Assembly (NCBI RefSeq): GCF_018446385.1
Contig: NC_056004.1
Span: 31,254,492 to 31,318,491, forward strand
Length of the DNA: 64,000 bases
DNA from: Zingiber officinale
Taxonomy: Eukaryota > Streptophyta > Magnoliopsida > Zingiberales > Zingiberaceae
Reading direction: 5' to 3'
Positions 20,061 through 56,124 of the stretch are shown here, in pieces; the stretch's first letter is position 1; each line of letters opens with the position of its first letter. Made by a program: the position numbers and the translations under genes. Under the pieces are notes generated by a model. It made no database searches and was not told where the DNA came from. It was given only the letters and a program-made list of their open reading frames with translations.

Positions 20061-21156
20061 TGTTGGAGCACTCCAAATGGTCCGTGGGACCATGTGTTTT
20101 GGTGTTTAGGCAAAGGGTTTAAGTTAGGTTCACTCTTGTTATTTGATATATGTACTTGAGTTGTGCAGGACTGTAGAATACACATGTGACTCAGGTTGAC
20201 GACTTCGGGTTTGGTGAAGGATGGAGCATCCGAGGGACTGTGGACAAAGCAGCGAGGACAAGGGCCGAGGGAAGCGACTTTGAGGCATACACGAAGGATG
20301 ACATTGGGGACGAGCCGCGGGCTTGAATGCATCCTAGGGACCAGAGCCAAAGGAAGTAAGCTTGAAGGCAAGAGGGCAAGGCTGCAAAGAAGCATCAAGT
20401 GAGTCATAAGGGTGAGGGTATGAGTGCACTAGAGATTGTACTCGGAGTAAAATCCTAGGGTTAGGGGTTTACTATATCGCTACTGTAGCAGTACTGTAGT
20501 GCTACTGTAGCAGTCAACTGCATGTTTTAGCAGTCGACTGGTGCAGTCGACTGGGTGCGAACAGAATGGTTCTGTTCGTTCGGTCAATGTGGATCAGTCG
20601 ACTGCATGTTTTGGCAGTCGACTGCAAGTTTTAGTAGTCGACTGGTATCGAGCCGTTGGGATGTAACGGTCGAATTTCCACAGAGGACAGTCGACTGCAT
20701 GTTTTGGCAGTCGACTGGTAGGCGGGGTTTTCAACCTGCGACCTATATAACCAAATCTTGGGAGTTTGGTTATAGTTGATGAAATAGAGGTGGTTAACCC
20801 CTATTAGTAGTCTACTTATGCCCTAGCTTGTAAAGAGTCTTTGGTGAGAGTTGTGGTGAGGTTTCTCCACCCACAAGAAGCTACGTGAGCTAGCCGGAGG
20901 TCTTCCGGGGAGTAATATATCGACAGATAGGGATCGTCCACCTTACGGACACGCCGTGGAGTAGCATCTTTATCTCCGAACCACGTAAATAATCGTGTAG
21001 CTTGGTTTGCATTCTTTCTTATCTTTAGTTTAACTTCCTTTAGCTTGTTTGCTTTTGTATATTCCGTTGCGCATACTAACAAGTGTAGGAAGAGCGATCG
21101 ATTCGGGGGTGTCGTCTATCCAACCCCCCTTCAAGCCGGTCGTCCGATCCCTTACA
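20061..21156 (+). repeat. 5' LTR of element A (C-type LTR)
   Basis: 1096 bp, TGTTGGAGCA...CCCTTACA, about the length of the two LTRs of element C (43840-44933, 55037-56124) and clearly homologous to them. Promoter TATATAA is at 20744-20750. Upstream of it six exact CAGTCGACTG palindromes and two one-base variants lie at 20511-20717. Minor frames inside (for example the minus-strand one at 20012-20407) recur in all three LTR copies only because the LTRs are homologous. Confidence 0.9.
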
Positions 21157-21157
21157 A

Positions 21158-21168
21158 GTGGTATCAGA
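21158..21168 (+). other. Primer-binding site of element A
   Basis: GTGGTATCAGAG directly after the LTR matches the 3' end complement of initiator tRNA-Met, the usual primer of Copia elements. Confidence 0.85.
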
Positions 21169-21211
21169 GTGAGGACGCTCTCCGTTGGACTAACCGCCAA
21201 GGAAGCACAAG

Positions 21212-21875
21212 ATGACCAGCTTGATTGAACCGCTAAAGTTTGAAGGCGGAGGCTTATGGGGCATCACATATTGGATGATGAAGATGGAGGTCTTCTTCAA
21301 CACGGATTGAGACACCATGATGGTGGTCAAAGAGCCGTTTGAAGTACCGAAAGATAAGAAAGAGAAGAAGCTCCGACCACGATATTGGACGGAGGAGCAA
21401 ATCTCACGATCAAAGGTAATATCAATTTTAATTGATATGTTGCCTAATGATGTTGTGAGTCGTGTAGGTAAATATGAAAATTCCCATGAATTATGGAGCA
21501 AAGTGAAGAAATTTCCATGGGAGGAATTCTTGCCTACACAAGAAGAAGAAGAATAAGAGTACTTTTGCAAAGACCAATGTGACTAAGACTTCTAAGAAGT
21601 CTAATAATGTCACAAAGAAGGTCACAAGGGAGACCATCCCTAGAATTGACCTAGTAAAGGTGACGAAGGCTCCAAAAAGGCGAAACAAAGCCACAAATAA
21701 GGTTACAAGGGGAGTTATCCCTAGAGTTGACCTAGTAGAAGTGACCAAGGCTTCTAAGAAGCCTAGAAAGGTTCTTAGGAAGGTATCTAGGGAAGTTATC
21801 CCTAGTGAGTACCTAGAGCACCCAAGGAGCACTAATAGGTTTTGGGTTCCTAGGAGCATCTTCTCTACACCCTAG
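21212..21875 (+). pseudogene. Gag remnant of element A, internally deleted
   Basis: Starts MTSLIEPLKFEGGGLWGITYW, the N-terminal Gag (UBN2/DUF4219-like) of the element C family. A TGA at about 21308 replaces the tryptophan of the NTDWDTMMVV block seen in C. The frame runs on to PTQEEEE at 21556. The zinc knuckles and coiled coil are missing: the sequence jumps to a basic C-terminal part at 21579-21875 with three copies of VTRxxIPRxDLVxVTKA and the ending REVIPSEYLEHP..FWVPRSIFSTP, almost the same as the end of Gag B. No pol follows. Confidence 0.85.
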
Positions 21876-24800
21876 ATGGGTTTAGAGAGTGTTAACTCCA
21901 ATTGGAAGGGTAATCAACCCAACCTTGTTAAAGTTGACACTTGAGAGCATTTTCAAGGTTATTATTAACCTTTGAAAATGAAAAGGATTATTGGGTTACT
22001 CTTTGAAAGAGTAAAATATGTCAAAAGTTGAGGAGTTGAATCTAATTTAAATTGACACACTTGAGAGAAGCAAAAAAAAATGCCAAATTGGGAATTCGGA
22101 TTTTCTTATGGAATTAAGGAAAATGTAAATCTTAATCCAAATTGTTACCCTTGGAAAGAGTAACATGTGCCAAAACCTAAGAAAATTAGATTTAATTTAA
22201 CTTGGCACAATTGGGATAACATAAGAAATACCAAATTAGGGTTTTGGTATTTTCTTAGGGTAATTAAAGGAAAATCTAAGTCCTAATGTAAGATGTTTAC
22301 TCTTTGGAAGAGTAAAATATGTCAAACTTTGAGGATTTGAACTTAATTTAAATTGACACATTTAGAAAAGGATAAGAAATGCCAAGTTGGGGTTTTAGCA
22401 TTTTCTTAGAAGGTTAAAGGCGAATCTAAGCCTTAATTTGATTTCATTTACTCTTTGAAAGAGTAAAATGTGCCAAGTCTTGAGAAATTGGATTTAAATT
22501 TAAATTGGCACAAATGCAAAAAGAAATACCAAGTTGAAAATTTGGTATTCTATTGAGGGGTTAAGAGAAAATTTAAACCTTAATCAAACTAATTACTCTT
22601 TGAAAGAGTAAGTTGTGCCAAACTTTGAGGAATCACATTTAATGTAAGTTGGTACACTTGGAAAAAGGGTGAGAAATGTCTAGTTGAGATATTAGTATGA
22701 TCTTGAGGAATTAAGAGTAAACTTAAGTCTCAATCTAAACGTTTAATCCTTAAGAGGAGTAATTTGTGTCAAACAAAAATTTGAGGATTGAATTCTTAAT
22801 CTCAATTGGCACAAATAGAAAAGGGTAAAAGAAATGTCAAGTTGGGTTTTGGCATTTCTTCAAGAAATGGACAATTTAGGCTTAATTTTAAGGTTTTAGC
22901 TAAGGTTTAAGGATACTTAGATAGATTATCTAGGTATATTTTATTTATGCTAAAATGTCATGATTGCTTGCTTGTCACATGTCATGACATCATGTGTCAC
23001 ATTCATTTTTATTATGAAAAATATAAAAATACCATATCATGTCATACATACATCGTGTAGCTATAGCATGTTTTTTCTTTTGAAAATTACTTATTTTGAT
23101 GTATGTCATGTAACATTATGGATTATGTTAATTTCCTTGTAATTAAGGACAAAAGGCATTTATTAAGAATGGTAAATATCCCAACAAGTGTGATTCCACC
23201 AAATGATATCCTAGGTGGATGATCATAAGTCTCATAATGCCTAGATAGATATGCATGATCCCTTAGTTAAAGTAAAACCAAATATACATCTTACAAAGAA
23301 CTATAAGGTGACTTGTATGTGTTTTAATACACATTAGATACAAGTGAGATGTTAGGATGGTGAACAAAACCCAAGATGTTGATTTAGTGCATCTTGTTGA
23401 GTTTTAGGTTCATCAAAACACATAGTTATATGTTTTCCAATCATTGGGAAAGCTAATGTACAAGTCATGTGCATTGAGCCCAAAGAACATGGTTGGATAT
23501 TGGTTTTGAAAATGATTTTAAAATACTTTTGGAAAACCTTGGTGAAGACTATCTTTTGATAGTGATCATCATTGAAAAGTTAGACACAAATTAGGAGAAA
23601 ACATTGAAGTTTTCAAGAGTTTTCAAATTTGTGTCAATCCTTGAAAATAGGAAGTATTTTCATAGAAAACTATTTTTTCCTGATAAAGTATACCCTAAAT
23701 AATGTCTACATGAGTTTTCATGATTTTTAGAATTTTGTAGAATTTTTGGGGAGTTTCTGAAATTCACTGAAAGTAAATTTCAGAATTTTAGTATTCCAAT
23801 CGATCGGGTGATCGATTGAAAGCGGTTTTCTCGCAAGCAGAAGCTTACTGGATTGATCCACCAATCGATCCAAGCAGCGTGAATCAATCCATTGATCGAT
23901 TAACATGCTGAATATGGTTGAAAAAGGTTGTTTTTAGTGATTTAAGCCAATCTTCATCTAGGTAACCACTCCAAACCCCTTGGAATATATTTGTATGCAT
24001 TTAGAGGGAGTTTTCATGATGAAATCAAGTATGGTTTGGTTAAGAAAAACCAAAGTGAAGTTTAGGATAAGGTTTAGTTTCAATTCTGAATTTTGGAACC
24101 TTAAAACTTCAAATTTTGATTTTCAAAAGTCATTAACCATTCCTAACCCTTTGAAATACATTTGTATACACTTAGGGGGAGTTTTCTCGATGAAAACAAG
24201 CATGGATTGGTTAACATAGACTTAAGTGAAGTTTAGGGTGAGATTTGGCTTCTTTATTGCATTTTGAACCTCAAAACTTCGAGTGTTGGTTTCCTAACTG
24301 TTTAGGAACTCCAAGTCATTGTTGGTGCAATGATAGAAGTTTACCATATTTTTAGGGGGAGTTACTCTTTGAAAACATAAAAATCTTTTCAAAGACCTTG
24401 GAAGGGGGATAAACCTTCGTGATGAAGTAATACTCAGGGTCGAATATTGGGGAGCAATGGAAGATTGGTTATCTTCATTGCTAGGATGATAAATGCTCTC
24501 GGATGAGCATTGAGAAGTAGATTACTGCTCAAGGGGGAGCATTGGGTTAATGAAGGGGATCGAACCTTCATTGGTAAAGTGAAAAATGCTCTTGGATGAG
24601 CATTGAGAAGAAGATTACTGCTCAAAGGGGGAGCATTAAATATAATGAATGGGAGTTTCATTGGGGAGTTGATGCATGCTCTAGGATGAGTATTGTGAAG
24701 TGAAGTAGAGCTCAAGGGGGAGCTTTGGAGATAATGAAGAATATGAGATCTTCATTGTGGGGTTGTTGACAACATGTGAGGTTGTAAACAACGAAAAGTT

Positions 24801-25144
24801 ATCTCTTATGGAGAAGAGTTTGTTTTCTTGGTTTGATGTGTGACAAAGGGGGAGAATGGAAGGTTAAGTTAGGTTTTCATCCCAAGTAGGGGGAGTTTGC
24901 CCTCTAGGAAAGGGGGAGAATGGAGGAAACCTTCATTCATGCCTTGTCATGAAGAGGTTAAGGGTATGGGATTTAGCCTTGGTATAAAGAAGATGTTAAG
25001 GCTATGTGATTTAGCCTTGTCATAAAGAAGAGGTTAAGGCTATGGGATTTAGCCTTGTGATAAAGAAGAAGTTAAGACTATGGGATTTAGTCTAACTTAA
25101 AGGTATTAACTTGAGGCATTGCCAAACATCAAAAAAGGGGAGAT
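21876..25144 (+). mobile_element. Non-coding internal region of element A
   Basis: 3.3 kb without coding potential, homologous to the internal region of element B read in reverse (48481-50543). It holds diverged units of about 150-180 bp at 21990-22870 bearing the inverted repeat TTACTCTTTGAAAGAGTAA. A cluster of CAATCGATC..GATCGATTG dyads lies at 23797-23910. Three units of about 120 bp with GCTC..GGATGAGCATTGAGAAG and GGGGGAGCATT follow at 24440-24740, then four units of about 46 bp (AAGGCTATGGGATTTAGCC) at 24955-25095. The purine tract CAAAAAAGGGGAGAT ends at 25144. Confidence 0.8.
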
Positions 25145-26839
25145 TTTTGGGGCAATTTCCCTAGGTCAAGTTTGACAAGGTTGACTAAGTTTGAGTTGAG
25201 CCAAGCTTGAGTCAGGATTTGAGTTTTGATGTTTGACAATATAAGGAGATTGATGAAGTAATCGTCCGATTATGGAGATGGTCACAGGGTTGACCAGGTT
25301 GATGAGAATACAAGTCAAGTAGGTCAAGGTTGACAGGAGACTTGACTGGGAAAGTCCTAACTCGAGGTTAGGCGTATGGAAGTCCTAACTGGAGTTTAGG
25401 CAGTGGTGGAAGTCCTGACTGGAGTTTAGGCAGTAGTGGAAGTCCTAACTGGAAGTTAAGCAAATTGAAAAATCCAAGTGTGAACTTGGAAAAGGAGAAA
25501 GTCCCAGTGAGGAGCCAGGCATTTGGGAAGTCCTGGTGAGGAGCCAGGCAACTGAAAGTCCAAGTGTGATCTTGGCAAAGGAGGAAGTCATGGTGAGGAG
25601 CCAGGCAATTGGGAAGTCTTGGTGAGGAGCCAGGCAACGGAAAGTCCAAGTGTGATCTTGGCAAAGGTTGTAAGTCCAAGCATGTGGTCTTGGCAAGGTA
25701 AGTCCTAGTGTGACTTGGCAAGGAGAACTCGATAACTAGGATGAGGCCGAAGGAAGCTCTTGAAGGCAATACGTGAAGGATAGGGAGATATCCGAGGGGC
25801 GGAAGGTTGATGGAGGAGGCTAGAAGGCTAGTTCAAGGTTGGTCGGGTATGGTCGGATGCTAGGCATGATGTACCAACAGGTCATGGATTGACCGGATGT
25901 TGGTTTTAGGGGCTTTGGACTTGATTGGGCAAGTCCACAAGAGCTGGATCGATCAACCAATCGATTGGCTCATGCTCAATCGATCGGTTGATCGATTGGG
26001 AGAGTACCCGCGACAAAGGGTTCTCCTAATCGATCCATGGATCGATTGGGAGGCTTTGCCGATCGCACAGAAAGCCTCCTAATCGATCCGCCGATCGATT
26101 GGGAGCCTCCAATCGATCGGCTGATCGATTGGGAGGTTAGATTTTCGTGCAATCTCTGGAAATCGCACGAAACACAGTAATTCGATTGGGCAATCGATTC
26201 AGGGGATTTCCAGAGAGCACAGAGGCGCTCTGGATCGATCGGACGATCGATCCAAAGCCTCCCCAATCGATTGGGAACAATCCAATCGATTAGGATTCGA
26301 CCGTTGGCCCAGATAAAGGCATTGGCGTGCGATTTCTTCGGCAAAAATCTCATTCCTTTCTATACGAGCTTGAAAGGGCGATTTTCACAGGTTCTCCATA
26401 GCTCTTCCCGCCAGTCTTGAAGGTTCTTGGAGGCACATCCAAGTCAAGAGGCGAGTTACAACAAGAAGAAGAAACTAGGGTTAGAGTTTATTGTACAAAT
26501 CTTGTAAGATTTCCCTTGTATTTGCTTCTCTTTATATTCTTGTTGTATTGTGAGCTTGTAAGACTTCTCCGCCTTCGGTAGTTACCGTAAAAGAGGGTTT
26601 TCATAGTGGAGGGTGTGTGAGTGTATGGATTCTTGGACTAGTCACTTCTTCTTGAGGTGGATATCAAGTAAATCTACGTGTTAGCGTTGTAGTGTGTTGT
26701 TTCTTGTATTTTCCGTTGCACATCATCACAAGAAGCAATCATCAACAAGATGAAGCAAACGACGCAAGGAGCGCGATGAAACGCTATTCCCCCCCCCCCC
26801 CCCCCCTCCCCTCCTCTAGCGGGCACAAAGGTCCTAACA
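25145..26839 (+). repeat. 3' LTR of element A (D-type LTR)
   Basis: 1.7 kb from TTTTGGGGCAATTTCC to GGTCCTAACA, placed just after a polypurine tract. Its start aligns with the LTR start of element B (TGTTGGTGCAAC) and it does not resemble the 5' LTR at 20061. Inverted-repeat modules of the form GGAAGTCC-arm-spacer-arm lie at 25355-25720. AATCGATC..GATCGATT dyads lie at 25947-26293, ahead of a degraded TATA (TATACG, 26361). A C18 run lies at 26789-26806. The flanking pentamer ATTAG does not match GTATC at the 5' end. Confidence 0.8.
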
Positions 26840-27600
26840 ATTAGTAGTTATTAATTTTAAGTAATTTAGTTAAAAAGAGTGTGTGTGTAGATGTAAGTGC
26901 AATTATGATTCGGGACGTCCGCATGCTTGGACACGTATATAAAAAAAAATAGGGACGTCACAGCCTACTCCCCGTTCTCTCTCGATTAGTTTATACCGAT
27001 CAGACTGGCCATGAAAGAACCAACATTAGCTTGCTGGGTTGCTCATGGAATTCTACCCCCTCTCCTCTAGGAGATCGCCACAGCCCATTTAGGCATTATA
27101 AAAGAGTGGGACTTCTGCAAGAGACCCATCTTTAAGTTAATAGTATAATATGTCTTCCAGCCTATGAGCTCATCTCACCATTAATACAACTCGTGGATTT
27201 ATCATATAGTCAAAAGATCGTATATGTGTACAGATACGTAATATACCCTTCTCATACCTGTGATGTGATTATCAGATATAGTAAGCATAATGATTGGACA
27301 AGTTGACTGATAGACAGATAATGTCTCGTTAAATATGGGAATTATGAGAGGTATTATAGAAGAGGGTCCTCCGGTACAAGTGCGTGCACACATACTCAAG
27401 TCTTCTCCTACTTTTTTCTATTTTGCACCACTATTTTGCCACCATAATTTTTAACTTAATCATTCATAAGGGACCCCAGCCGACTTATTGATAACTTCAC
27501 TCCTCCTTTTGCTAGTGTTTATAGGTGATTTCTCGAGTTCTTGAGTTGAGGTCTTATTCTCGATCCATATTCCAACCAACTCACCAACAGCCCACTATCC
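26840..27600. other. Intergenic with gypsy-like LTR remnant
   Basis: No gene. The stretch ATTATGAGAGGTATTATAGAAGAGG (27340-27364 region) and the following TCTTCTCCTAC.. resemble 60795-60900 (GTTATGAGAGGCGGTATAAAGAGGGGG), so both may be remnants of one LTR family around its TATA box. GT repeats occur at 26878-26890. Confidence 0.35.
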
Positions 27601-27706: not shown

Positions 27707-28788
27707 CCTCCTCGATCTAGAACAGTCCATGTCCAGAATAAAATCTGCTAGCTGAAACAAGTATAAAACCTCTCATCTGCAGTTCGATTTAACTTTAAAT
27801 TACATATTTCAAATCAAACCAAACACTTTGGAACCCGACGGCAGCGGTCGATCTTTTGCGCGATAAGCATCCTGTTGCTGCACAGGCAAAAAAGCATTAA
27901 AGCAGATTGGCAGTGTCTTCCCGTGCCCTGCCCTCCACACAGCCAGCACCCACATCATGCACCATTTCCATGCAGTCATCATGCCCCAAATCATACGACG
28001 CCACCAGGACTGAGGACAACCTTGCCAAATTATTATTCGAGGGGCCAAGCCAACCCCCGAACAACAAAATAGGACACTGGGAAAAATGATTAATAGTACA
28101 AGAGAGCATGCAGCTTGTAATCATCTCCATCCCACAAAAGGTACAGCCCCACTCGCCGTTGCCGTGGCCTTGACCCAAAAGGCGACGAGCAAGCTCGCTG
28201 GTTAGCGCTAGCTCCTCGGCCAGGGCGTGCCTGCCTGCCTCTTCCGTGTCTTCACTTTTTTTTGGCTTTTCATCTCGATCTTCATCGATGGAGAGTTAGG
28301 TGGCCGGCCGTGAGAGAGGGGGCATCATTAAGCCTCTCCGTTGGCGTGCCTTTTGACGGCAGCCATTTGCACTTCCATGGGCTTACGTAATTAAATTAAT
28401 GTTTTTTTTTATAATTCAAATGTTTAAATTCCCTCCCTTTCTTTCCTTAAATCACTTGTCAGATAAAATTGAAATACAATTTATAAATATTTAAAAGTCG
28501 ACTTTTAAGGATGGTATGCATATATAATTGTTGGATTTTTTTAAGAGAAATGAAGACAAGTGCTTTGGCTTTCCATGGAAGAAAATTTGAGAGAATGGGC
28601 TATGGTTGGGCTAATCTGTCTCGATCCATGCAAATTTCAATATGGCTCAAGGCATTGTAACTAACCACCCGTCCTTTGAATCGTAGTTATGACGCACGAA
28701 AGATTTTCTTTCAATGGGATAAAAAATTATGAGGAGCCCTTGTATTTCTGAATTTACCAGGTGGATGAAATATGATAAAAGTATATTA
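27707..28788. other. Intergenic, moderately GC-rich patch
   Basis: 27840-28380 is richer in GC than its surroundings and has overlapping small frames on both strands, none with recognisable motifs or domain-like composition. A GGTGGCCGGCCG stretch is at about 28300. The rest is AT-rich. No gene is supported. Confidence 0.4.
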
Positions 28789-30271: not shown

Positions 30272-31620
30272 AAGGTCGTCCGTCTCCAATATTGTTGGGT
30301 TTGTAAAGATCTGAATATCTAGATTTTCAATAAAAAAAATATGGCTTAAGTCAAGCCAAGTCAATTGATCTTAATCAAATCACATTCGGCTTCGGCTTGA
30401 CTTGGGCTCCGACCTTGAACATTTAAGTCATAATAGGTCACGTTGATTGACCTACCTAATTAGTAGGATAAGTAGAATAAGTTTGCTCTTGCTAAGCCGA
30501 GAATTTTAAATTTGCTCTTGTCGATGAGTTTTAAAGTATCTCTCTTAAAATGAATTGAAAACATTACGACCTCTCTTTTCCTTTACCCCTGACTCAGTCG
30601 ACTAAGCATTCAGTTAAAATAGACCAATTGAATTGAACAAATTAAAAATCAAATAAATCAAAAAATTTTAAACTCTTAGTCAGTTAAAATAGATCAATTG
30701 AATTGAACAAATTAAAAATCAAATAAATCAAAAAATTTTAAACTAACCTAATCGATTAAATTTTCCAATAAAAATCTAACAAATTGAACCGATTAAATAT
30801 CAGTTAATTCGATTTTTGGTCGAATTAATCGAATTAACTAAAATTTTAAAACTAAATTAATCAAGTTTAGATTTTATTAATTAATTACATATTTTATTTA
30901 ATTAATTATATTTTAAATAAAAAATAATCAAATTAATATTTATTTGGTTTATCACTTTAATCGAATTACAAATTTTAAAATTAAAATTAAACCGAATTAA
31001 TCGAAAATTAAACTAAATTTTATAAAAATAAAAATTATTAATCAAACTAAATTTCTAAATTCGATGAATTCAATTCAATTAATTTAATTTTATTAAATTT
31101 TTACTCATCTGCTCCACCATCAAAATTACTAATGATTTCATTTCATTTAGTTAAATAACTTATTTTATATTTTTAATTTATGCAATCGATTCAATTTGTA
31201 CTCTAACATATTTGATTTTTTCCATACAATCAGTTTTTTTTATTTTCTAAAATTCCAAAATTTTAACGTATAAGATAAACAAATGATCCAATTTCTTTAG
31301 CTCATTCAATTTTTTTTAATTCATTCTTCCTTAGCTCATAAAGCCATATAAATTGTTCGATTAAAAAGATTTATTTGTTTGATTTATATATTTTACCTAA
31401 TTTCTTTAACTTAGCTTATTAAATCTGGTATAATTCATCTAAGTTTTAACTTATCCTCGTATTCACTTTTATTTTATATTTTAAAAATTAATATTATTTT
31501 AACAAATGAAATGAGTGACATGCAATTAGGATTTAATTTTATTAGAAAATATGCTGCAGGATAGGTGTGAAGAAGTTTTTATTTTATTTTTATAGATTGT
31601 AAAATAAAATAAAAAATTAT
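30272..31620. other. AT-rich intergenic with duplication
   Basis: Very AT-rich. A 64-bp unit (CAGTTAAAATAGAYCAATTG...AAATTTTAAACT) is repeated at 30611-30674 and 30681-30744. The following 300 bp are rich in GAATTAATCGAATTAA-type self-complementary words, as in eroded foldback elements. No gene seen. Confidence 0.5.
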
Positions 31621-42052: not shown

Positions 42053-42098
42053 GGTAAGTCATCCAGTATCCTCCATCTTCACGTTTCAGTAAAAGATG

Positions 42099-43839: not shown

Positions 43840-44933
43840 TGTTGGTTGATCGATGGCTGGCTTGAAGGGGGGTTGGATAGACGGCACCCCCAAATCCTCG
43901 CTTCCTACACTATTGTTAGCTTGCGCAGCGGAATACAAACAAAAACAAACAAGCTAAACTAAAAGCAAGACAAAGAAAGGAAATGCAAACCAAGCTACAC
44001 GTTCGTTTAACGTGGTTCAGAGATTAGGGCTCCTACTCCACGGCGTGTCCTTGAGGTGGGCGATCCCGATCCGTCGGTGGATTAACCCCCGGCAAACTCC
44101 GGCTATCTCAAGTAGCTCCTTGTGGGTGGAGAAACCTCACCACAACACCAACTAAGACTCTTGAGACTAGTAGACTACTAATTAGGGTTTACCACCACTA
44201 ATTTCGTCAACTCTAACCAAGCTCCCAAGCTTTGGTTATATAGGTCGCGGGTTGAAAACCCCGCCTACCAGTCGATTGCCAAAACATGCAGTCGACTGTC
44301 CTCTGTGGAAATTCGACCGTTACATCCCAACGGCTCAATACCAGTAGACTGCTAAAACTAGCAGTCGACTGCTAAAACATGCAGTCGACTGTTAAAACAT
44401 GTAGTCGACTGATTCACATTGACCGAACGAACAGAACCACTCTGTTCGCACCCAGTCGACTGCACCAGTCGACTGCTAAAACATGCAGTCGACTGCTACA
44501 GTAGCGCTACAGTACTTCTACAGTAAAGCCCTAAAATTAGGATTTTACCCCGAGTACAATCTCTCGTGCACTCGTACCCTCACCCTTATGACTCACTTGA
44601 CGCTTCTTTGCAGCCTTGACCTCTTGCCTTCAAGCCTACTTTCTTTGGCTCTCGTCCCTCGGATGCATTCAAGCTCGCGGCTCGTCCCCAATGTCATCCT
44701 TCGCGTATGCCTCGAAGTAGCTTCCCTCGGCCCTTGTCCTCGCTTCCTTGTCCACGGTCCCTCGGATGCTTCATCCTTCACCGGACCCGAAGCCATCAAC
44801 CTGAGTCGCATGTGTATCCTGCAAACCTGCACAACTCAAATACACATATCAAGTACAAGGGTGAACCTAACTTAAACCTTTTGCCCAAACACCAAAACAC
44901 ATGGTCGCACGGACCATTGAGATTGCTCCAACA
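43840..44933 (-). repeat. 3' LTR of element C
   Basis: 1094 bp. Six exact CAGTCGACTG palindromes plus three one-base variants at 44269-44495 lie upstream (in sense) of TATATAACC at 44234-44242. It ends CCAACA next to the polypurine complement ATCTCCCCTTTTTT. Confidence 0.92.
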
Positions 44934-45998
44934 ATCTCCCCTTTTTTGATGTTGGCAATACGTTTAAGTTAGGGAAAACATAATAGCAAAAAAATATGCT
45001 AAAACAAATGGACTTACGTTACTAAGGCTACACACTTGGATTTACACCGCCGAATGAACTTACATTGCCAAGGCTATACACTTGGACTTACATCGCCAAA
45101 TGGACTTACGATGCCAAGGCTACACACTTAGACTTACTCCGCCGAATCACAAACAATGAAACATGCATTTGAACCTATCCCAAGGCTCCCCCTACACATA
45201 CGCTCCCCAATGAACTAGGATTTTTACAACGGGCTTTTTAAGAACATATCCCAAGGCTTCCCTATGCAAAGACACTTTCAGGTTTTCCCAACTAAACTTT
45301 ACTCCTCCCCCTTTGCCTAACATCCAAAAGTTCTCCAACAATATCCCAATTATTGAAAACTTGTCATCCAAATTAACCCTAAACTCATGTATTAATCCCC
45401 CATGGATTTCATACACATATAAGAGCTGACCCGGTCAAAATCCAGTACTGAAAATACTTTCAGACTGGTATCAGTCGACTGCCAGAAGTACCAGTCGACT
45501 GCCCCCATGAAAACGAGCTTACAGAGACATTCTGTGCTCATGAACAGTGTTACCAGTCGACTGGTACACTATTCATGAAAAAATTAGCTTTTTCTGGCCA
45601 ACTTCAGAAATGCGCCAGAAATTCCACAGACCTCCAAAAAATCCCAAATTTTGTGGAGATGTCTATTATATCAATGTCTACTTGGGGGAAAATATATATA
45701 AAAATATATCTATCACCAATCTCAAGATTGACATAAAATATAAAACTAGCTAAAAAGTTCAATTGAACCTTGACCTAAAGTCCTAGTTTTGGCTTCCTCT
45801 TGATGTATTTTCCCATACTAACCCATAATGCATCCCTAGCATTGGTTTATATGACATCTATACATCCAAAACCAATTATCATACTATATGACCCCAATGT
45901 CATATTTCTAAGCATGAAACATAACCCATGTGTGTCAATTCCCTAGGTTTGAGATTCAAGTCAGTCTCCAAACCACTTTGCACATTCCATGACTTAAC
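44934..45998 (-). mobile_element. Non-coding internal 3' region of element C
   Basis: Contains three units of about 53 bp (GGACTTACRTYGCCAAGGCTACACACTT) at 45010-45150 and a second set of CAGTCGACTG palindromes at 45472-45481, 45503-45512 and 45554-45563. The last is the centre of a 16-bp perfect palindrome, TACCAGTCGACTGGTA (45551-45566). No coding potential. Confidence 0.8.
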
Positions 45999-46529
45999 CT
46001 AGACTCCCAAGTAAAACCCACTTGAGATCCATTGGCCATGGGTCCCAAATTGACTCTTTGACCTCCCTCTAGAGCTCTTAACCTTAGCCACCTCCCTAGG
46101 TGGCTCACCCACAATGGCTAGGCCACATCGGTGCACCTCCGGTGACACTTGACCTACAAACCTAACTTTCTTAACCTTGGACACTTTGTCCTTGGTTAAT
46201 TTTTCCTTACCTTTAAATGGCTTTTCCTTGCCATTTATTGGCTTTTCCTTGCTATAGTCATATGCAACCCTAGCATAAGACTTTCCCTTAGCTTTGGATG
46301 ATCCTCCCTTGCCATGATCATTTGCCACCCTAGCATATGATCTCTCTTTGGCCTTTGAGGTACTAGATCGGTATCCCAAACCCGATATATCATTGTTGGG
46401 TCTTTGGCTACCCAACACCATACCTAAACCCTTAGATCCAACATTGAATCTTTCTAGGGTTTTCTCCAACTTATCAAGCTTTGCCTTCAAAGCTTGATTT
46501 TCCCTTTCTAAGTTCCTAACCCTAGAGTC
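45999..46529 (-). pseudogene. Gag C-terminal part of element C
   Basis: In the minus-strand frame, gag proper starts at RVRNLERENQALKAKLDKLE, a leucine-heptad coiled coil, followed by SYARV repeats, Lys-rich KEKPxxGKEKP repeats and VRFVGQVSPEVHRCG. The frame's first 18 residues (MGSAIHTPPSLAVRRIPT) come from the LTR of inserted element B. The other gag half is at 53842-54983. Confidence 0.85.
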
Positions 46530-48480
46530 TGTTGGGATCCTTCGTACGGCTAGAGAGGGGGGGGTGTGAATAGCCGACCCCAAATCGATCGCGTTTCTTC
46601 CTACGATTAGGTTAGTTGCAGCGGAAATACAAGGAAGAAACTAAGAAGAAGAAATCAAACCTCAACGCAAGGATGTAACGAGGTTCGGAGATTAGGGCTC
46701 CTACTCCTCGGCGTGTCCGTAAGGTGGACGAGACCAGTCAATCCGTCGGTGGATGAGTCCCCGGAGAACCGGCTAATACAATATACTCCTTGTGGGTGGA
46801 GAAACCTCGCCACAAACGTTTGCAACAGCAAACAAAGAGTACAAGTACAAAGAATAAGCAAGAAATACAATAAGAATACACAAGCACTCTACCAATCTTG
46901 CTTTCTCGTCGACTGGAGTCCGGATGAAGCAGCAGCTTCAAAAACTCTAACAGCAGCAGCTGTTCCAGTCGGGGAAGCTCACGCGAAGCTTTCGGAAGGA
47001 ACTCAACAGAGCTCTTATCGCAGCCCACAAATCTTCAGCAGAAGAGAAGAAGGAAGGAAGAACTATCGCGCAGAGAAGCTCTCGACCCCTTTATACCGCG
47101 AAGAAGCAGCGAAGAAACTAGTCGTTGCGTCGCAACGGCTAGAACCCTGATCGGTCGTGGACCGATCAGTAACATCATCGGTCGCATACTGGGGAAGAAG
47201 CCTATGCTTCTGTTCCGTCCCCGATCGGTCCATGGACCGATCAGAAACGGACCAGAAGCGAGAAGAGAATCCTGATCGGTCTACGGACCGATCGGGCTTC
47301 TTCTCCGCCGCCATCGATCTCCCGATCGGTCTCGGGCATCGATCGATAACCATCGTAGCATCGATCGGTCACCGATCGGTCACCGCACCGATCGATGAGC
47401 CATGATCATTGGATCGGTGCGGCCCGATCCAAACTTTTCACCCTAAACCTAAGACTTCCACACCAACATCCGGTCAACCTTGACTGTTGGTACATCATGC
47501 CTAGCATCCGGTCACTCCCTTGACCTGCTAGCACTTCCCGCTAAGTGTCCGGTCAATCCTTTGACCCACTTAGACTTTTCAACACCGTAAGTCCGATCAT
47601 CCCCGATCCATCTGGATTTTCCTTGCCCGGTTTCACTCACGGGACTTTCCAACCGCCTAACATCCTAGTTAGGACTTTCCCACCGCCTAACATCCCAGTA
47701 GGACTTTCCCACCGCCTGGTTTCACTCACCGGGACTTTCCACACCGCCTAACATCCCAGCTTAGGACTTTCCAACCGCCTAACATCCAGCTAGGACTTTT
47801 CCACCGCCTAACATCCCAGCTTAGGACTTTCCCACCGCCTGGTTTCACTCACCGGACTTTCCACACCGCCTAACATCCCGCTTAGGACTTTCTCACCGGC
47901 TTCACTCACAGACTTTCCCGTGCCAAGTCTCCATACTTGGACTTTTCGCCAAGCTCCCTGCTTGGACTTTTCCGCCAAGTCTCCATACTTGGACTTTTCC
48001 AATGCCAAGCTCCCTGCTTGGACTTTCGCGCCAAGCCCCCTGCTTGGACTTTTCCAGTGCCAAGTCTCCATACTTGGACTTTTCCAATGCCAAGCTCCCT
48101 GCTTGGACTTTTCGCGTGCCAAGCTCCCTGCTTGGACTTTTCCAGTGCCAAGTCTCCATACTTGGACTTTTCCAATGCCAAGCTCCCTGCTTGGACTTTT
48201 CGCGTGCCAAGCTCCCTGCTTGGACTTTTCCCGAATCAGGTCAACCAGGTCAACCTTGACCTAAGGTTGCACCTACAATCTCCCGAACACCTATTCTTGT
48301 CAAACATCAAGAATACAACTCTCTCACAAGAGTCAAACATCAACATGCAACTCAACTAGGTCAATCTTGACCTAAGGTTGCATCAACAATCTTCCCAAGT
48401 CAAACATCAAAATACAACTCGAGTCAAGTCAACTCGAGTCGGGTCAACCAGGTCAACCTTGACCTAAGGTTGCACCAACA
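46530..48480 (-). repeat. 3' LTR of element B
   Basis: 1951 bp. TATAAA on the minus strand at 47090-47095. GATCGGTC-type dyads at 47147-47430. Inverted-repeat modules at 47463-48232, with 11 CCAAG-type modules against 5 in the other LTR, which accounts for the ~170-bp length difference. The first ~380 bp match the 5' LTR exactly by eye, whereas the middle differs often, mostly at CTG and CAG words. Frames such as 47902-48210 are readings of the repeats, not genes. Confidence 0.9.
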
Positions 48481-50543
48481 ATCTCCCCCTTTTTGATGTT
48501 TGACAAAACCATAATCAAGTTAGGTTAACCCGATAACCTAACTTAGGTTTTCCAACCATCTTCCAATGTCCAATGTTCTTTCCTTGAACATTCTCTGGAC
48601 ATTCTCCCCTTAGGTTAACCCGATAATCTAACTTGGGTTCTCCAATAATTCTCCCCCTTTTTGACACACATCAAAAAGTATTCCAATGTTCTTCCTCGAA
48701 TATTCCTTGACATTCTTCCCTTAGCTTAGGTTAACCCGATAACCTAGCTTGGGTCCTCCAATAATTCTCCAATGAACACTCTCCCCTTTTTGACACACAT
48801 CAAAAAGAAAAGGAGGATATCAGGGTCAAGAGTTTCTTCCTAATGAAAGTCCCATACCTTTCATTGAAACTCTTAATTTCCCCCTTGATACTAAACTCAA
48901 CAACCAACTTAGTGATAATTCCATATCACTCAAGTCTTTAGGAGTAAAAACTCCCCCTAAAAGTCAACTCCCCTTGACAATTAGGTAAAAACTCCCCCTA
49001 AAGGTCAACTCCCCCTTGACCATTGCACCAACAATGTCTTGGAGAGTTTCAAACCTTTAGAAATCCACAAAACCCAATTTTCAGCTGAAATTTCAGACCA
49101 ACAGTCGAAATTCAGCACGCTCGATCGGTCACCGACCGATCAGATCCCATTGGATCGGTCCCCAGATCGATCCACATTCACTGGGATCGGACTGCCTCAC
49201 TGCCTCTTACTGGATCGGTCTCCGGACGGATCCACACCTCCCTGGATCGGTCCAGTGACCGATCCACTCCTTTCTGGATCGGTCCAGTGACCGATCTAAG
49301 CTCCCTTATCAGAATTCCTGAATTTCCTTTACCCGAAATTCAGAAACCCATAAACAATTCCAAAAAAATTTCAAAAATTATGAAACTTTGAGGATACACT
49401 CCTCATAACATATACAATCATGGAAAAATAGTTTTCTATGAAAATAACTTCCATTTTTCAATCTTGATACAAAGTTCAAAAACTTTGAAATAGTTCAAGT
49501 TTTAACTCAACTTTGTATCACAATGTTCAATGATGAATGCTATCACTAGGAAAGCTTCATCAAGGTTTTTCAAATCAATTTTAAAATGCTTTTAAAATCA
49601 TTTGAATTTAGGACCATAATCTTAGGGCTAGATGCACATGACTTGTACACAAGCTTTCCCTATGATCCTCCATTTCTTGAGTTAGGCTCATCTAGGTACA
49701 AGAACTATGCACCTTGATCCTAATTCATGATCCTAATATCTCACACACATCTAAGGTGTATCAAACACATCCATGACAATTTTGATGTGAGATATGGGTT
49801 TAGGTATCTTAGACTAAGGTCTCATGCATTTTCTAAACACAAATTTGATCTCAATATCAAAATGTGTTTTTCATCCTTAAATCAATTCAATTGATTATTA
49901 ATGCAAGAGATGATGACATGGCATAAATGATATCATAAATGGAAAACATGTGCCAATGTCATGATGTCATGGCATAAAGTATGAAACTTAACTAGAGCAT
50001 GGCATATAATAACCTAAGCATTATCATGACATTTCAAATGATCATAAATTAAATATGATGTCATGACATGGCATATGGCAAACAACCATGGTAAGTTAAC
50101 ACAAATAAGATACCTAGATTACCTATCTAAGTATCCTTAATCACTTAGTTAACTTAAATTCTAATCCTAGATTGCCCAAAGTGCTCCAAGAAAATGTCAA
50201 AACTCAAATTGGCATTTCTTGATCTCTTGTTTGATTTATACCATTTTAAAAATTTTACAAGAGTAGCACTTCTAAATTAAGGCCCGGATTGCCTTGATTA
50301 CCTAAGAGAATATCAAAATCCCAATTTGATATTTCTCTAGGTTTTTCCAAATTGTGTCAATTTAAAGTAAGATTAATATATTCTCACTTTGGCACACTTT
50401 ACTCTTCCAAGGAGTGAATGATAAAGATTATTCCATTTCATTTTCAAAGGTTCCCAAAAACCTTGAAAATGCTCCTTGAGTGTCAATTTCCTCAAAGTTG
50501 GGTTAACTACCCTTCTTATTGGAGTTGACACTCTCTAACCCAT
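48481..50543 (-). mobile_element. Non-coding internal region of element B
   Basis: No coding potential. The purine tract complement ATCTCCCCCTTTTTG lies at 48481-48495. Blocks with CTCCCCCTTTTTGACACACATCAAAAAG recur near 48650, 48780. A second set of GATCGGTC..GACCGATC dyads lies at 49123-49296. The 50160-50420 part holds one or two of the units seen many times in element A at 21990-22870. Confidence 0.8.
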
Positions 50544-52055
50544 CTATGGGGTAGAGAAAATGCTCCTAGGAACCCAATACCTACTTGAGCTCATTGGGTT
50601 CACTAAATATTCACTAGGGATAACTTCCCTAGCAACCCTCCTAATGACCCTCTTAGGCTTTAAAGCCTTGGTCATTTGGGACTCATCAAGATCAACTCTA
50701 GGGGTGACTCCCCTTGTGACCTTGGTGATGGTCTTCCTAGCCCTAAATTTTGTTCCATAATCGAATGGAACATTATGATAAGTGGGCTTGACCACTTGGG
50801 ACTTAGGTTTGTGACCCAAACCTTTCTTGTCCTTGGGCTTTGAGATTTGACCCTTAGACCCTAGAGTTGACTTCTCTAAATTCTTTAGGGCCTTTTCTAG
50901 AGTGTTAAGTCTTGACCTTAAGACTTGATTTTCTTTCTCTAAAACCTCAAGTTTTAATTTATCATTCTTTCTTGAGGTGTTCCTAGGCATATGTCTAGTT
51001 GTCTTGGGGTTTCTACCTAGGTTCTCCTTAGCCTTAGATGAGTTAATCCTAGGGTTGACCTTCCTAGTATTGTTCTTATCTAAGCTAAGATGTTTAGCAC
51101 CTAAGCACACATGTTGATTTCTATGATTATCATGCTTATCATTCTTGACAATTGCAATAAGACTACTAGCATGTATCTTATTAGAAGTGCAAGAATGAAC
51201 CTTAGAGGATACCTTAGGGTTTGCCTTCGCTCCCCCTTTACACGTGCTTGGTCTTTTGTCCTTGTGAGATTGCCTCCCCCTTGGACATTGACTCCTATAG
51301 TGTCCCCATTGCTTGCATTGGAAGCACACCACGTGCTTCTTGCTCTTGCATGTCGGGACTCCGGTTTCCTTGACCTTTGGTGCCGGTGGAGTCTTTCTAA
51401 CCCTCTTTGGACACTTACTCTTGTAGTGCCCAAACTTCCTACACTCAAAACACATTATGTGTAGTTTGCTTGAAATCACAGTGTTTGAGTTACCTAGGGT
51501 TGTGGATGTAGATGAGCTTTCTTCTTCATCCCTTCCGGAGGTAGATGCCTCTTCTTGCTCCGATCTTGAACAAGAGCTCTCCTCCTCTTCTTCCTTGGAT
51601 GTTGAGTAGCCCTCAACTCCCAATTCGCTTCCTCCATGATGTGAGCTACTTGGCTCACTAGGCTCCTCTTCATGGAATTTTGCCAAATTGTTCCACAATT
51701 CCTTGGCGTTGTTGTACCTATCTATCTTGCACAAAACATTATTAGGTAAAGAAAATTCAATAATTTTTGTTACCTCGTCATTGATTTCGGATTGTCGGAT
51801 TTGCTCTTTCGTCCACTCCTTCTTCTTGATAGGTTTTCCTTCCTCATCCATCGGAGGGGAAAACCCTTCTTGTACACAAAACCAATTTAACATATTAGTC
51901 CTAAGAAAATACATCATCCTTACCTTCCAATATGTGAAGTTGTCGTGAGACTCGTAGAAGGGTTGAATCGTGACATCTTCTCCATAGAGATCCATCTCTA
52001 GCCCGTGCTCCCCCGGGTGTTGATCCGTCGAAGAGCGGCCTCGCTCTGATACCAC
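50544..52055 (-). CDS. Gag of retrotransposon B, intact, 503 residues
   Basis: Encodes a Copia-type Gag, expected to form virus-like particles that package element RNA in the cytoplasm. The likely start is near MDLYGEDVTIQPFYES (residue 22), because the first residues overlap the primer site. An N-terminal UBN2/DUF4219-like domain carries NFTYWKVRMMYFLR (residues ~40-55) and the ELWNNLAKFHE region (~120). A Ser/Glu-rich acidic linker follows. Two CCHC zinc knuckles, CFECRKFGHYKSKC and CFQCKQWGHYRSQC, bind RNA. Then a basic region, a coiled coil (KLEVLEKENQVLRSRLNTLE) and the ending VPRSIFSTP. No protease or pol frame follows, so the protein stands alone. An intact frame in such a repeat-rich place suggests recent activity or selection. 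Confidence 0.9.
   Translation of the reverse strand: MVSERGRSSTDQHPGEHGLEMDLYGEDVTIQPFYESHDNFTYWKVRMMYFLRTNMLNWFCVQEGFSPPMDEEGKPIKKKEWTKEQIRQSEINDEVTKIIEFSLPNNVLCKIDRYNNAKELWNNLAKFHEEEPSEPSSSHHGGSELGVEGYSTSKEEEEESSCSRSEQEEASTSGRDEEESSSTSTTLGNSNTVISSKLHIMCFECRKFGHYKSKCPKRVRKTPPAPKVKETGVPTCKSKKHVVCFQCKQWGHYRSQCPRGRQSHKDKRPSTCKGGAKANPKVSSKVHSCTSNKIHASSLIAIVKNDKHDNHRNQHVCLGAKHLSLDKNNTRKVNPRINSSKAKENLGRNPKTTRHMPRNTSRKNDKLKLEVLEKENQVLRSRLNTLEKALKNLEKSTLGSKGQISKPKDKKGLGHKPKSQVVKPTYHNVPFDYGTKFRARKTITKVTRGVTPRVDLDESQMTKALKPKRVIRRVAREVIPSEYLVNPMSSSRYWVPRSIFSTP
52044..52054 (-). other. Primer-binding site of element B
   Basis: Minus strand TGGTATCAGAG, two bases after the 5' LTR, complementary to the 3' end of initiator tRNA-Met. 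Confidence 0.9.
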
Positions 52056-52056
52056 T

Positions 52057-53836
52057 TGTTGGGATCCTTCGTACGGCTAGAGAGGGGGGGGTGTGAATAG
52101 CCGACCCCAAATCGATCGCGTTTCTTCCTACGATTAGGTTAGTTGCAGCGGAAATACAAGGAAGAAACTAAGAAGAAGAAATCAAACCTCAACGCAAGGA
52201 TGTAACGAGGTTCGGAGATTAGGGCTCCTACTCCTCGGCGTGTCCGTAAGGTGGACGAGACCAGTCAATCCGTCGGTGGATGAGTCCCCGGAGAACCGGC
52301 TAATACAATATACTCCTTGTGGGTGGAGAAACCTCGCCACAAACGTTTGCAACAGCAAACAAAGAGTACAAGTACAAAGAATAAGCAAGAAATACAATAA
52401 GAATACACAAGCACTCTACCAATCTTGCTTTCTCGTCGACTGGATTTACCCTAACAGCAGCAGCTGTTCCAGTCGGGGAAGCTCACGCGAAGCTTTCGGA
52501 AGGAACTCAACAGAGCTCTTATCGCAGCCCACAAATCTTCAGCAGAAGAGAAGAAGGAAGGAAGAACTATCCCTGTAGAAGCTCTCAGCCCCTTTATACC
52601 TGCGAAGAAGGAACAGCGAAGAAACTAGCCGTTGCGTCGCAACGGCTAGAACCCTGATCGGTCTGTGGACCGATCAGGCAACATCCTGATCGGTCTGCAG
52701 ACCAATCAGGGAAGAAGCCTATGCTTCTGTTCCGTCCCTGATCGGTCCATGGACCGATCAGGGAACCTCCTGATCGGTCTACGGACCGATCAGGCTTCTT
52801 TCTCCGCTGCCACTGATCTCCTTCTGATCGGTCTCCAGACCGATCAGATAACCATCAGTAGCATACTGATCGGTCACTGATCGGTCACCAGACCGATCAG
52901 ATGAGCCATGTATCATTGGATCGGTCTGCAGCCCGATCCAAACTTTTCAGCCCTAAACCTAAGGCTTCCACACCAACATCCGGTCAACCTTGACCTGTTG
53001 GTACATCATGCCTAGCATCCGGTCACTCCCTTGACCTGCTAGCACTCCCCGCTAAGTGTCCGGTCAATCCCTTTGACCCACTTAGACTTTTCAACACCAG
53101 AAGTCCGATCATCCCTGATCCATCTGGATTTTCCCTTGCCTGGTTTCACTCACCAGGACTTTCCAACTGCCTAACATCCTAGTTAGGACTTTCCCACTGC
53201 CTAACATCCCAGTTAGGACTTTCCCACTGCCTGGTTTCACTCACCAGGACTTTCCACACTGCCTAACATCCCAGTTAGGACTTTCCAACTGCCTAACATC
53301 CCAGTTAGGACTTTTCCACTGCCTAACATCCCAGTTAGGACTTTCCCACTGCCTGGTTTCACTCACCAGGACTTTCCACACTGCCTAACATCCCAGTTAG
53401 GACTTTCTCACTGCCTGGCTTCACTCACCAGGACTTTCCTCGTGCCAAGTCTCCATACTTGGACTTTTCGCGTGCCAAGCTCCCTGCTTGGACTTTTCCA
53501 GTGCCAAGTCTCCATACTTGGACTTTTCCAATGCCAAGCTCCCTGCTTGGACTTTTCACGTGCCAAGCTCCCTGCTTGGACTTTTCCCGAATCAGGTCAA
53601 CCAGGTCAACCTTGACCTAAGGTTGCACCTATAATCTCCCGAACACCTATTCTTGTCAAACATCAAGAATACAACTCTCTCACAAGAGTCAAACATCAAC
53701 ATGCAACTCAACTAGGTCAATCTTGACCTAAGGTTGCATCAACAATCTTCCCAAGTCAAACATCAAAATACAACTCGAGTCAAGTCAACTCGAGTCGGGT
53801 CAACCAGGTCAACCTTGACCTAAGGTTGCACCAACA
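52057..53836 (-). repeat. 5' LTR of element B
   Basis: 1780 bp. Sense order: TGTTGGTGCAACC with GGTCAAGGTTGACC W-box-like dyads, CCAAG-type modules (53440-53590), CCTAAC- and CCTGGT-type modules (53140-53440), nested modules with GGTCA..TTGACC cores (52973-53140), GATCGGTC dyads (52654-52939), then TATAAA (52593-52598). The R-U5 part is the ~530 bp to 52057. Confidence 0.92.
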
Positions 53837-53841
53837 GAGTC

Positions 53842-54983
53842 AACATGTCCACCATGGGCATTCATAGACCTACCCACTTTTCTAGGCGTATGTCTCCCCT
53901 TCTTGGGATTAATGCCTTGGGTCTCCCTAGGTCTATTGTTTCTAGATTTTCATGCATAGATTTCCTAGGGTTTTGATCAACAATTACCCTACTTCTATCA
54001 TGATATCTAAATCTAAAATTTTTCATTGCTACATGATGATAATCATTATTTTTCCTAGCATGCATGGAGGAATTTAAATTTGACTTTAAATTTAAATTAG
54101 GGTTTACCTTACCCTTTACCTTTGGAGCTCCCCCTTGACATGAGCCTCCATTCTTCCTCCACTTCTTTTCCTCCTTCTTCAAATGTGTCAACTTTTTGAT
54201 CTCTTTCTTCTTTGGGCATTTGGTGTGGTAATGACCCCGCTCACCACACATGAAGCACACTATGTGCTTTTTCTCCTTCTTCTTCCTATAACTCAAATTA
54301 GATTCAAAATAAATTGAATTGAGTTTAGGAGATACCTTATTCTTACCCATAGGACATCTATTCTTGTAGTGTCCCTTCTCATTGCACCCGAAGCATATTA
54401 TATGGTCTTTTGACTTCACTTCGGTGGAGGTGCTTGCTAGGTTGATTTCCAAGACTTCTTCTTCTTCTTCACTTGTCTTGGATTGTTCTTCAATCTTTGA
54501 GGATGTCTCCTCATCCACACTAGTGGATGTCATTTCTTCATCCTTCTCCTCTTTCTCCTCAGAAGTTGAGTGCTCTTCACCTTCCTGTTGCTCCTCCTCT
54601 ACTTGAGCTTATTCATCCGTTTTTCGGATTTTTCTTCTTCTTGTGTAGGCATAAGTTCTTCCGATTGAGCCTTCTTTATCTTGCTCCACAAATCGTGAGC
54701 ATTCTCGTATTTACCTACAAGGCTCATTACGTCATTAGGTAAAATATCAATTAATATTGATATTACCTTGTCGTTTGCCTTTGACCGAGAGGTTTGCTCC
54801 TCTATCCAATGTCATGGTCGGAGCTTCTTCCTTTTCTTGTCCTTCGGGACTTCGAATGGCTCTTTGACCACCATCATGGTGTCCCAATCCGTGTTGAAGA
54901 AGACCTCTATCTTCATTATCCAATATGTGATGTCCCATAAGCCTCTACCTTCAAGCTTTGGCGGTTCAATTAAGTCGGTCATC
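53842..54983 (-). pseudogene. Gag N-terminal part of element C
   Basis: Starts at the minus-strand ATG near 54983 (MTDLIEPPKLEGRGLWDITYW). The DTMMVVKEPFEVPKDK block matches element A. At 54812-54814 a TGA stop replaces the CGA of element A, consistent with deamination of a methylated C. Downstream, 53862-54533 is open: Ser/Glu-rich linker, two zinc knuckles CFGCNEKGHYKNRC and CFMCGERGHYHTKC, Lys-rich region, and an end at VD where element B was inserted. It continues at 46529. Confidence 0.88.
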
Positions 54984-55023
54984 TTTGCTTCCATGGCGGT
55001 TAGTCCAATGGAGAGCGGCCTCG

Positions 55024-55034
55024 CTCTGATACCA
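55024..55034 (-). other. Primer-binding site of element C
   Basis: Minus strand TGGTATCAGAG next to the 5' LTR border at 55037, complementary to initiator tRNA-Met. Confidence 0.88.
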
Positions 55035-55036
55035 CT

Positions 55037-56124
55037 TGTTGGATGATCGGTGGTCGGCTTGAAGGGGGGTTGGATAGACGGCGCCCCCAAATCCTCACTT
55101 CCTACACTATTGTTAGCTTGCGCAGCGGAATACAAAAAAAAACAAACAAGCTAAACTAAAAGCAAGACAAGGAAAGGAAATGCAAACCAAGCTACACGTT
55201 CGTTTAACGTGGTTCAGAGATTAGAGCTCCTACTCCACGGCGTGTCCTTGAGGTGGACGATCCTGATCCGTCGGTGGATTAGCCCCCGGCAAACTCCGGC
55301 TATCTCAAGTAGCTCCTTGTGGGTGGAGAAACCTCACCACAACACCAACCAAGACTCTTGAGACTAGTAGACTACTAATTAAGGTTTACCACTACTAATT
55401 TCGTCAACTCTAACCAAGCTCCCAAGCTTTGGTTATATAGGTCGCGGGTTGAAAACCCCGCCTACCAGTCGACTGCCAAAACATGCAGTCGACTGTCCTC
55501 TGTGGAAATTCGACCGTTACATCCCAACGGCTCGATACCAGTAGACTGCTAAAACTAGCAATCGACTGGTGCAGTCGACTGCTAAAACATGCAGTCGACT
55601 GATCCACATTGACCGAAGGAACAGAACCATTCTGTTCGCACCCAGTCGACTGTGCGGTCGACTGCACCAGTCGACTGCTAAAATATGCAGTCAACTGCTA
55701 CAGTACTGCTACAGTAAAACCTTGAAACTAGGATTTTACTCCGAGTACAATCTCTCGTGCACTCGTACCCTCACCCTTATGACTCACTTGACGCTTCTTT
55801 TCAGCCTTGACCTCTTGCCTTCAAGCCTACTTCCTTTGGCTCTCGTCCCTCGGATGCATTCAAGCCCGCGGCTCGTCCCCAATGTCATCCTTCGTGTATG
55901 CCTCGAAGTAGCTTCCCTCGGCCCTTGTCCTCGCTGCCTTGTCCATGATCCCTCGAATGCTTCATCCTTCACCGAACCCGAAGCCATCAACCTGAGTCGC
56001 ATGTGTATCCTGCAAACCTGCACAACTCAAATACACATATCAAATACAAGGGTGAACCTAACTTAAACCCTTTGCCCAAACACCAAAACATATGATCGCA
56101 CGGACTATTGGGATTGCTCCAATA
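55037..56124 (-). repeat. 5' LTR of element C
   Basis: 1088 bp, close partner of 43840-44933. Six exact CAGTCGACTG palindromes and four one-base variants at 55466-55697, TATATAA on the minus strand at 55433-55439. The terminal CCAACA has become CCAATA. Confidence 0.92.

Follow-up and report, generated by a model that had tools for sequence, protein, structure and literature searches.

Why would a retrotransposon in which gag is the only recognised domain carry one type of palindromic box both in its long terminal repeat (LTR) and again in the non-coding linker before its 3' LTR? The question is raised by a 64,000-nt stretch of the ginger (Zingiber officinale) genome (assembly GCF_018446385.1, contig NC_056004.1, positions 31,254,492 to 31,318,491; referred to as the window), which contains three such elements, A, B and C. 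In each of them a dyad array in the LTR is accompanied by an array of the same core in the linker. The feature is real and well supported, and it is already known in kind. Since repeated-motif (RM) boxes in both the LTR and the linker of Sireviruses were published in 2010 (PMC2829016, in the passages cited here), the pairing as such is not new. What is new is that abundant gag-only families lacking an envelope gene have it, that their linker arrays occupy a homologous slot with cores matched to the LTR, and that there is evidence against exchange between the two sites.

Paired box arrays in the window

An earlier note on this DNA, made from the letters alone, had described the dyad arrays in the LTRs and internal regions of the three elements, and both sets were confirmed at their positions (Table 1). 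The C box CAGTCGACTG occurs 21 times as an exact copy in the window: 18 copies are in C-type LTR arrays (six in each C LTR and six in the 5' LTR of A), three in the C linker and none elsewhere. The 11 exact GATCGGTC-N(3-5)-GACCGATC dyads are confined to the B LTRs (3 + 5) and the B linker (3), and the six exact ATCGATC-N(1-5)-GATCGAT dyads to the 3' LTR (5) and linker (1) of A. Linker 8-mers give the same picture. The number of positions found in own versus other-family LTR arrays is 21 vs 1-4 for A, 44 vs 0-11 for B and 22-27 vs 0-3 for C. The A linker 8-mers also match two LTR fragments with A-like boxes, D (20) and E (19). Overall, 211 exact dyads (arm of at least 7, spacer of at most 8) are present in the window, compared with a mean of 50 in 20 shuffles. 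The densest bin (14251-14500, 21 dyads) corresponds to a TA repeat at 14278-14311 and is unrelated to the arrays.

Fragment D (28780-30285, plus strand) is LTR-like, with about ten AATCGATT-type boxes and tandem units upstream, and has no recognisable linker. Fragment E (56125-57400, minus strand), also LTR-like, adjoins the C insertion and contains CAATTGATTG and related boxes.

The motif was proposed to agree within each element. This holds for both LTRs of B and C, and in A for the linker and the 3' LTR, but not for the C-type 5' LTR of A, which fits neither the linker nor the 3' LTR of that element. Element A is chimeric, its C-like 5' LTR and gag start coming from one family and its 3' half from another. 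Its flanks, when compared, show no matching target-site duplication, and it probably originated by recombination or by deletion between two insertions. The proposed position of the LTR array directly before the TATA box was likewise found for B and C but not for the A type. TATAWA follows the array in 11 of 13 B-type LTRs and, within 150 nt past the last LTR box, in one of 14 sampled A-type LTRs, and the 3' LTR of A in the window has only GATAAA past its box array.

Concordance in the source genome

In the source genome (3.09 Gb, 211 contigs), a C-type 30-mer has 11,717 sites when up to 3 mismatches are allowed, and the exact polypurine/LTR junction of the type sought occurs 16,155 times, while the reversed control gave 0 for both. 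A wider search for C-type junctions returned 2,928 sites, as counts and places only. The first 30 junctions on contig C1 were taken as loci without regard to the motif; they do not represent a random sample of the genome. Half-site counts classified 14 of them as a/a and 13 as b/b, with 0 discordant and 3 unclassified. A check of the linker slot then removed L029, whose upstream boxes lie outside it, leaving 26 of 30 loci cleanly concordant, 0 discordant and 4 unscored. Both flanking linker blocks were found in 24 of the 26 concordant loci, and only the downstream block in L040 and L051. Besides L029, the unscored loci are L035, with a b linker and an LTR containing 14 b and 8 a, L058, in which the linker is replaced by unrelated repeat sequence, and L037, which is described below.

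A motif-agnostic pairing score over all 30 loci is 119, compared with 60.8 (standard deviation 11.6, maximum 102) for 10,000 random pairings. The family-specific core shared by LTR and linker, for which the earlier note had named random pairing as the check, is therefore found beyond the three elements, and the many discordant members that would have spoken against it were not seen in this limited sample. Of the elements picked by a C-type LTR, 20 of 20 carry one or more exact C boxes in the linker; where their LTR was only partly found by self-comparison, the junction or linker match was used.

Eight loci have another tract prefix. In seven of these the linker is free of A, B and C boxes, and in six of the seven so is the LTR side. 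On the LTR side of L064, a few b and a boxes lie some 950 nt or farther in and may not belong to the element. The eighth locus, L062, is B-like, with 9 a and 9 b half-sites in the LTR and 3 a and 6 b in the linker, and was left unscored because its LTR counts are equal.

One A-type locus of the genome, L042, has B-type boxes directly beyond its 3' LTR end, as if it had inserted in a B-type array.

How the two arrays are related and what may read them

Box type is a character of the family. Both sites of one family share a core, with one array in U3 and the other in a fixed linker slot between gag and the polypurine-tract cluster. The upstream linker blocks are conserved between families and stop where the boxes start. 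Upstream-flank scores, given against the shuffle maximum, are 142 vs 24 for A-B, 34 vs 19 for A-C and 24 vs 21 for B-C, the last being marginal taken alone. Compared with A and B, the arrays of family C2 occupy the same linker slot. The downstream linker flanks of A, B and C in the window show no match beyond shuffles.

With the boxes masked, the linker neighbourhood does not match its own LTR beyond shuffles. The linker array is thus ruled out as a captured LTR fragment, an origin that the earlier note had regarded as fatal to its reading. The bases adjoining the core differ systematically between linker and LTR boxes (p = 7e-8 for B, p = 1.5e-12 for A). Within families, the match to the own LTR is no better than that to a relative's LTR (A, 5.14 vs 4.80; B, 3.36 vs 3.66), which leaves exchange within single copies unsupported. 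Concordance is a property of the family, and single copies are without sign of exchange. With a homologous slot, differing flanks and no own-copy match, LTR and linker arrays appear to have arisen separately and to share core and geometry alone. The earlier note had left the choice between exchange and a shared function; the flanking bases, masked linkers and single-copy matches all speak against exchange, and a shared function fits better.

The geometry is well defined in two of the families. A 4-nt spacer separates the facing half-sites in 51/51 pairs of the A linkers and 60/65 of the A LTRs, and in 36/40 pairs of the B linkers and 47/56 of the B LTRs (the B set includes L029). The letters of the spacer vary at this fixed length. 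From the shared core, the fixed geometry, the free spacer and flanks and the promoter-proximal position of one site we infer a dimeric DNA-binding factor. We give an even chance to the proposal that one sequence-specific factor reads the boxes of both LTR and linker. The boxes would then be candidate binding sites of a dyad-recognising protein, either a host transcription factor or a product of a helper element, whose action at the LTR promoter and at the linker would most likely be that of an activator or anti-silencing anchor. Following a change of core, both arrays could be refitted by local repeat turnover and selection for a match, with no copying from LTR to linker. The linker arrays are CpG-rich in CpG-poor linkers at 28/28 A- and B-type loci (L029 and L035 included), a hint of continued maintenance; the excess is in part circular, as CG belongs to the core itself, and the window C linker has none (0.61 vs 0.59).

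Several observations weigh against a shared factor. One geometry for all families fails, because the perfect C palindrome has no spacer. At L037, linker and LTR partly mismatch: the linker contains five C boxes, and the LTR one C box and two other palindromes, CAATCGATTG and CCGTCGACCGG. It is possible that the two sites are drifting apart. TATAWA is absent within 120 nt past the linker array at all 27 loci scored for it. Copies within a family are not independent, and the independent units amount to about three box types. No candidate box-reading protein turned up, and none was sought by experiment. Finally, both arrays fold very stably as RNA, which a DNA-binding factor does not require.

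This last point leads to the main rival, in which the arrays act in RNA, as hairpins for packaging or dimerisation or as sources of small RNAs used in host silencing. We consider it unlikely overall, but serious, because the folds are very stable (z-scores of -6.1 for the B linker, -14.1 for the B LTR and -7.2 for the C linker, none matched by any shuffle) and both U3 and the linker are near the 3' end of the genomic RNA. For maize Sireviruses, the LTR palindromes are reported to be hotspots of small RNAs and to have strong predicted structure (PMC5311732, PMC10760457, passages cited). However, any dyad array folds well, so that the folds do not discriminate between a role in DNA and one in RNA. 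A single CAGTCGACTG forms no hairpin alone, and an RNA role needs no promoter-proximal site. The alignment of C linkers contains too little variation to judge RNA pairing by compensatory change.

Alternatively, the linker array could be an inherited relic of the cluster of boxes found ahead of the envelope gene in complete Sireviruses, where it would serve as an internal promoter or enhancer of env. The position is the same as in envelope-bearing elements, past the coding sequence and before the polypurine-tract cluster, and an internal promoter is the role preferred by the 2010 authors (PMC2829016, passages cited). Against this, no envelope-like frame lies between the linker array and the 3' LTR in A, B or C, and intact arrays that agree with the LTR are found in each of the four families examined (A, B, C1, C2). 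The lack of TATAWA after the linker array (0/27) also leaves the published idea of an internal promoter in the linker unsupported in these families. If the common ancestor was already env-less, the cores changed after env was lost, an order that we infer; each family may instead have lost env separately. Taken together, a relic appears distinctly improbable.

It is more doubtful still that the arrays have no function, with palindromic repeats spreading and turning over alone and both sites seeded from one source. Other tandem arrays do occur in the same LTRs, for example 29-62 nt units in the B LTRs, but core and spacer length are common to two separated sites whose flanks differ. Such repeats are also not ubiquitous, because seven of the eight loci with the other tract prefix are without linker boxes and six without LTR boxes. 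Exchange, whether by capture of an LTR fragment or by homogenisation through conversion or template switching, would account for the common core and for regions that change fast enough to differ strongly between the two LTRs of B, but is very improbable in view of the unrelated box-masked surroundings, the outer-base differences, the equal match to a relative's LTR and the homologous slot.

Sirevirus identity and known systems

B and C, together with the 3' half of A, derive from Sirevirus-type Copia retrotransposons and are gag-only. B is nested within the gag of C. Gag is the sole recognised domain, with zinc-knuckle frames in B and C (that of C is interrupted by B, and A is chimeric). Among the long frames listed and the seven pieces scanned with Pfam, none in A, B or C was recognised as a pol frame. 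A search of the protein collection with B gag gave 6070 candidates and 0 homologues at E 1e-3.

Table 1. Elements A, B and C and their parts, in window coordinates.
Feature	Position	Strand	Remarks
Element C	43840..56124	-	target-site duplication GGCTT
C 3' LTR	43840..44933	-	LTR pair 93% identical; duplication GGCTT
C 5' LTR	55037..56124	-	LTR pair 93% identical; minus-strand primer site at 55023
C 3' LTR box array	44269..44495	-	six exact CAGTCGACTG, upstream of TATATAA
C 5' LTR box array	55466..55697	-	six exact CAGTCGACTG, upstream of TATATAA
C linker array	45472..45563	-	three exact CAGTCGACTG (45472, 45492, 45554), two spaced 20 bp
C linker 3' of array	44934..45471	-	two AGGGGGAG and terminal AGGGGAG adjoining 3' LTR
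C gag piece, right of B insertion	53862..54608	-	zinc knuckle
C gag piece, left of B insertion	45999..46529	-	no Pfam match
Element B	46530..53836	-	duplication GAGTC
B 3' LTR, nested in C	46530..48480	-	duplication GAGTC
B 5' LTR	52057..53836	-	
B 3' LTR box array	47147..47430	-	
B 5' LTR box array	52654..52939	-	upstream of TATAAA
B linker array	49123..49296	-	
B linker 3' of array	48481..49122	-	five AGGGGGAG tracts, last one at 3' LTR
B gag frame	50544..52076	-	510 amino acids stop to stop; CCHC zinc knuckle
Element A	20061 to about 26840	+	C-type 5' part joined to different 3' part
A 5' LTR, C type	20061..21151	+	C boxes at about 20531-20717
A linker array	23797..23910	+	AATCGATC-N4-GATCGATT type
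A linker 3' of array	23911..25145	+	eight AGGGGGAG tracts and terminal AGGGGAG
A 3' LTR	25146..26840	+	partner LTR not in window; ends approximate
A 3' LTR box array	25947..26293	+	

The Sirevirus placement is suggested by non-coding hallmarks, the genus-defining reverse transcriptase being absent from A, B and C. The polypurine octamer AGGGGGAG is positioned about 10 bp before the 3' LTR and is followed by AT/TG, exactly in B and with one G fewer in C. The corresponding junction of A deviates (AGGGGAG, then ATTTTTGG), so A alone is not a clean Sirevirus case. The tracts cluster 3' of the array (eight in A, five in B and two in C, with an additional degenerate terminal tract in A and C), while 5' of it there are none in A, two in B, inside gag, and none in the left piece of C. 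An inverted repeat flanks the terminal tract (14/14 in B, 16/17 in A, a longer imperfect arm in C). B and C have the junction CA/A(T or G)TGG followed by the primer site TATCAGAGC (initiator tRNA), and the A primer site, TATCAGAGT, is one letter off. PolyC runs of 6-8 are found about 32-35 nt before the ends of the B and C LTRs; those of A are 6 or 18. Primer site, clustered tracts, inverted repeat and polyC agree with the published Sirevirus description (PMC2829016, passages cited).

The LTR pair of B is almost identical over the first and the last 360 or so bases. In the middle, which contains the tandem units and the box array, the two are set apart by large insertions and numerous single changes, frequently CAG or CTG read as CG, and the 3' and 5' box arrays differ much from each other. 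This could reflect conversion from another copy, or base-calling or polishing errors at methylated CHG sites. The linker boxes of locus L021 show changes resembling those between the B LTRs.

Elsewhere in the window, 32703-42956 contains an old direct repeat pair, about 80% identical and about 9 kb apart, perhaps a degraded Gypsy element. A 113-bp tandem array occupies 37476-38311 within this interval, and the minus strand matches Integrase_H2C2 at 39253-39546. A plus-strand frame at 550-918, perhaps part of a host gene, weakly matches the ESSS subunit of complex I, with a score below the curated cut-off.

We are highly confident that the arrays of A, B and C are Sirevirus RM boxes. In 13 Sireviruses, Bousios et al. 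2010 described palindromic RM boxes that precede the TATA box of the LTR, and linker boxes in nine envelope-bearing elements and in none of four without envelope, with one consensus per element (PMC2829016, as for the following comparisons, in the passages cited). The earlier note had stated that no described LTR system has such a pairing; these nine Sireviruses already do. The arrays in ginger are likewise many-copy palindromic dyads in the LTR, before TATA in B and C, and in the linker, with a single consensus per element. The Osr10 box, CGGTCTGACCG, consists of the B arms with a shorter spacer, and the Tnd-1 box, ACAATCGATTGT, contains the A core. The CGG-CCG core is present in B (CGGTC..GACCG) and missing from A and C, as it is from the published Tnd-1. 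In contrast to the published linker boxes, which accompany an envelope gene, those described here occur without envelope and pol. The nine with and four without represent an association rather than a definition, and the presence of the pairing in abundant gag-only elements loosens the tie of linker boxes to the envelope gene. A limited search of the literature found no report of linker boxes in elements without envelope.

TR-GAG elements resemble A, B and C in having LTRs, a primer site, a polypurine tract and gag as the sole recognised frame, and the passages cited are silent on box arrays (PMC6022998). The palindrome clusters of maize Sireviruses are similarly located in the LTR regulatory region, and the passages cited above concern the LTR. 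Three natural box types, two of them (A and B) with fixed spacer geometry, make the question of what reads Sirevirus boxes testable.

By analogy, the closest working precedent for subfamily-specific motifs in several non-coding regions of one element is provided by the VANC targets of Arabidopsis VANDAL elements (PMC5735166, PMC10398659, passages cited). These, too, are short, subfamily-specific and fast-changing tandem repeats in several separate non-coding regions. VANDALs differ in being DNA transposons with unrelated motifs and a known element-encoded protein, which binds them in an anti-silencing system that works by removal of methylation, so that only the motif arrangement is comparable. 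Tentatively, and with less expectation of being right than for a shared factor as such, the boxes could be the address of a trans-supplied factor that would be to these retrotransposons what VANC is to VANDALs, required at promoter and linker independently of the envelope. Gag-only families would then need the address at both sites for transcription or for escape from silencing, and elements that switched the core in both arrays would form a new compartment with another factor to serve it.

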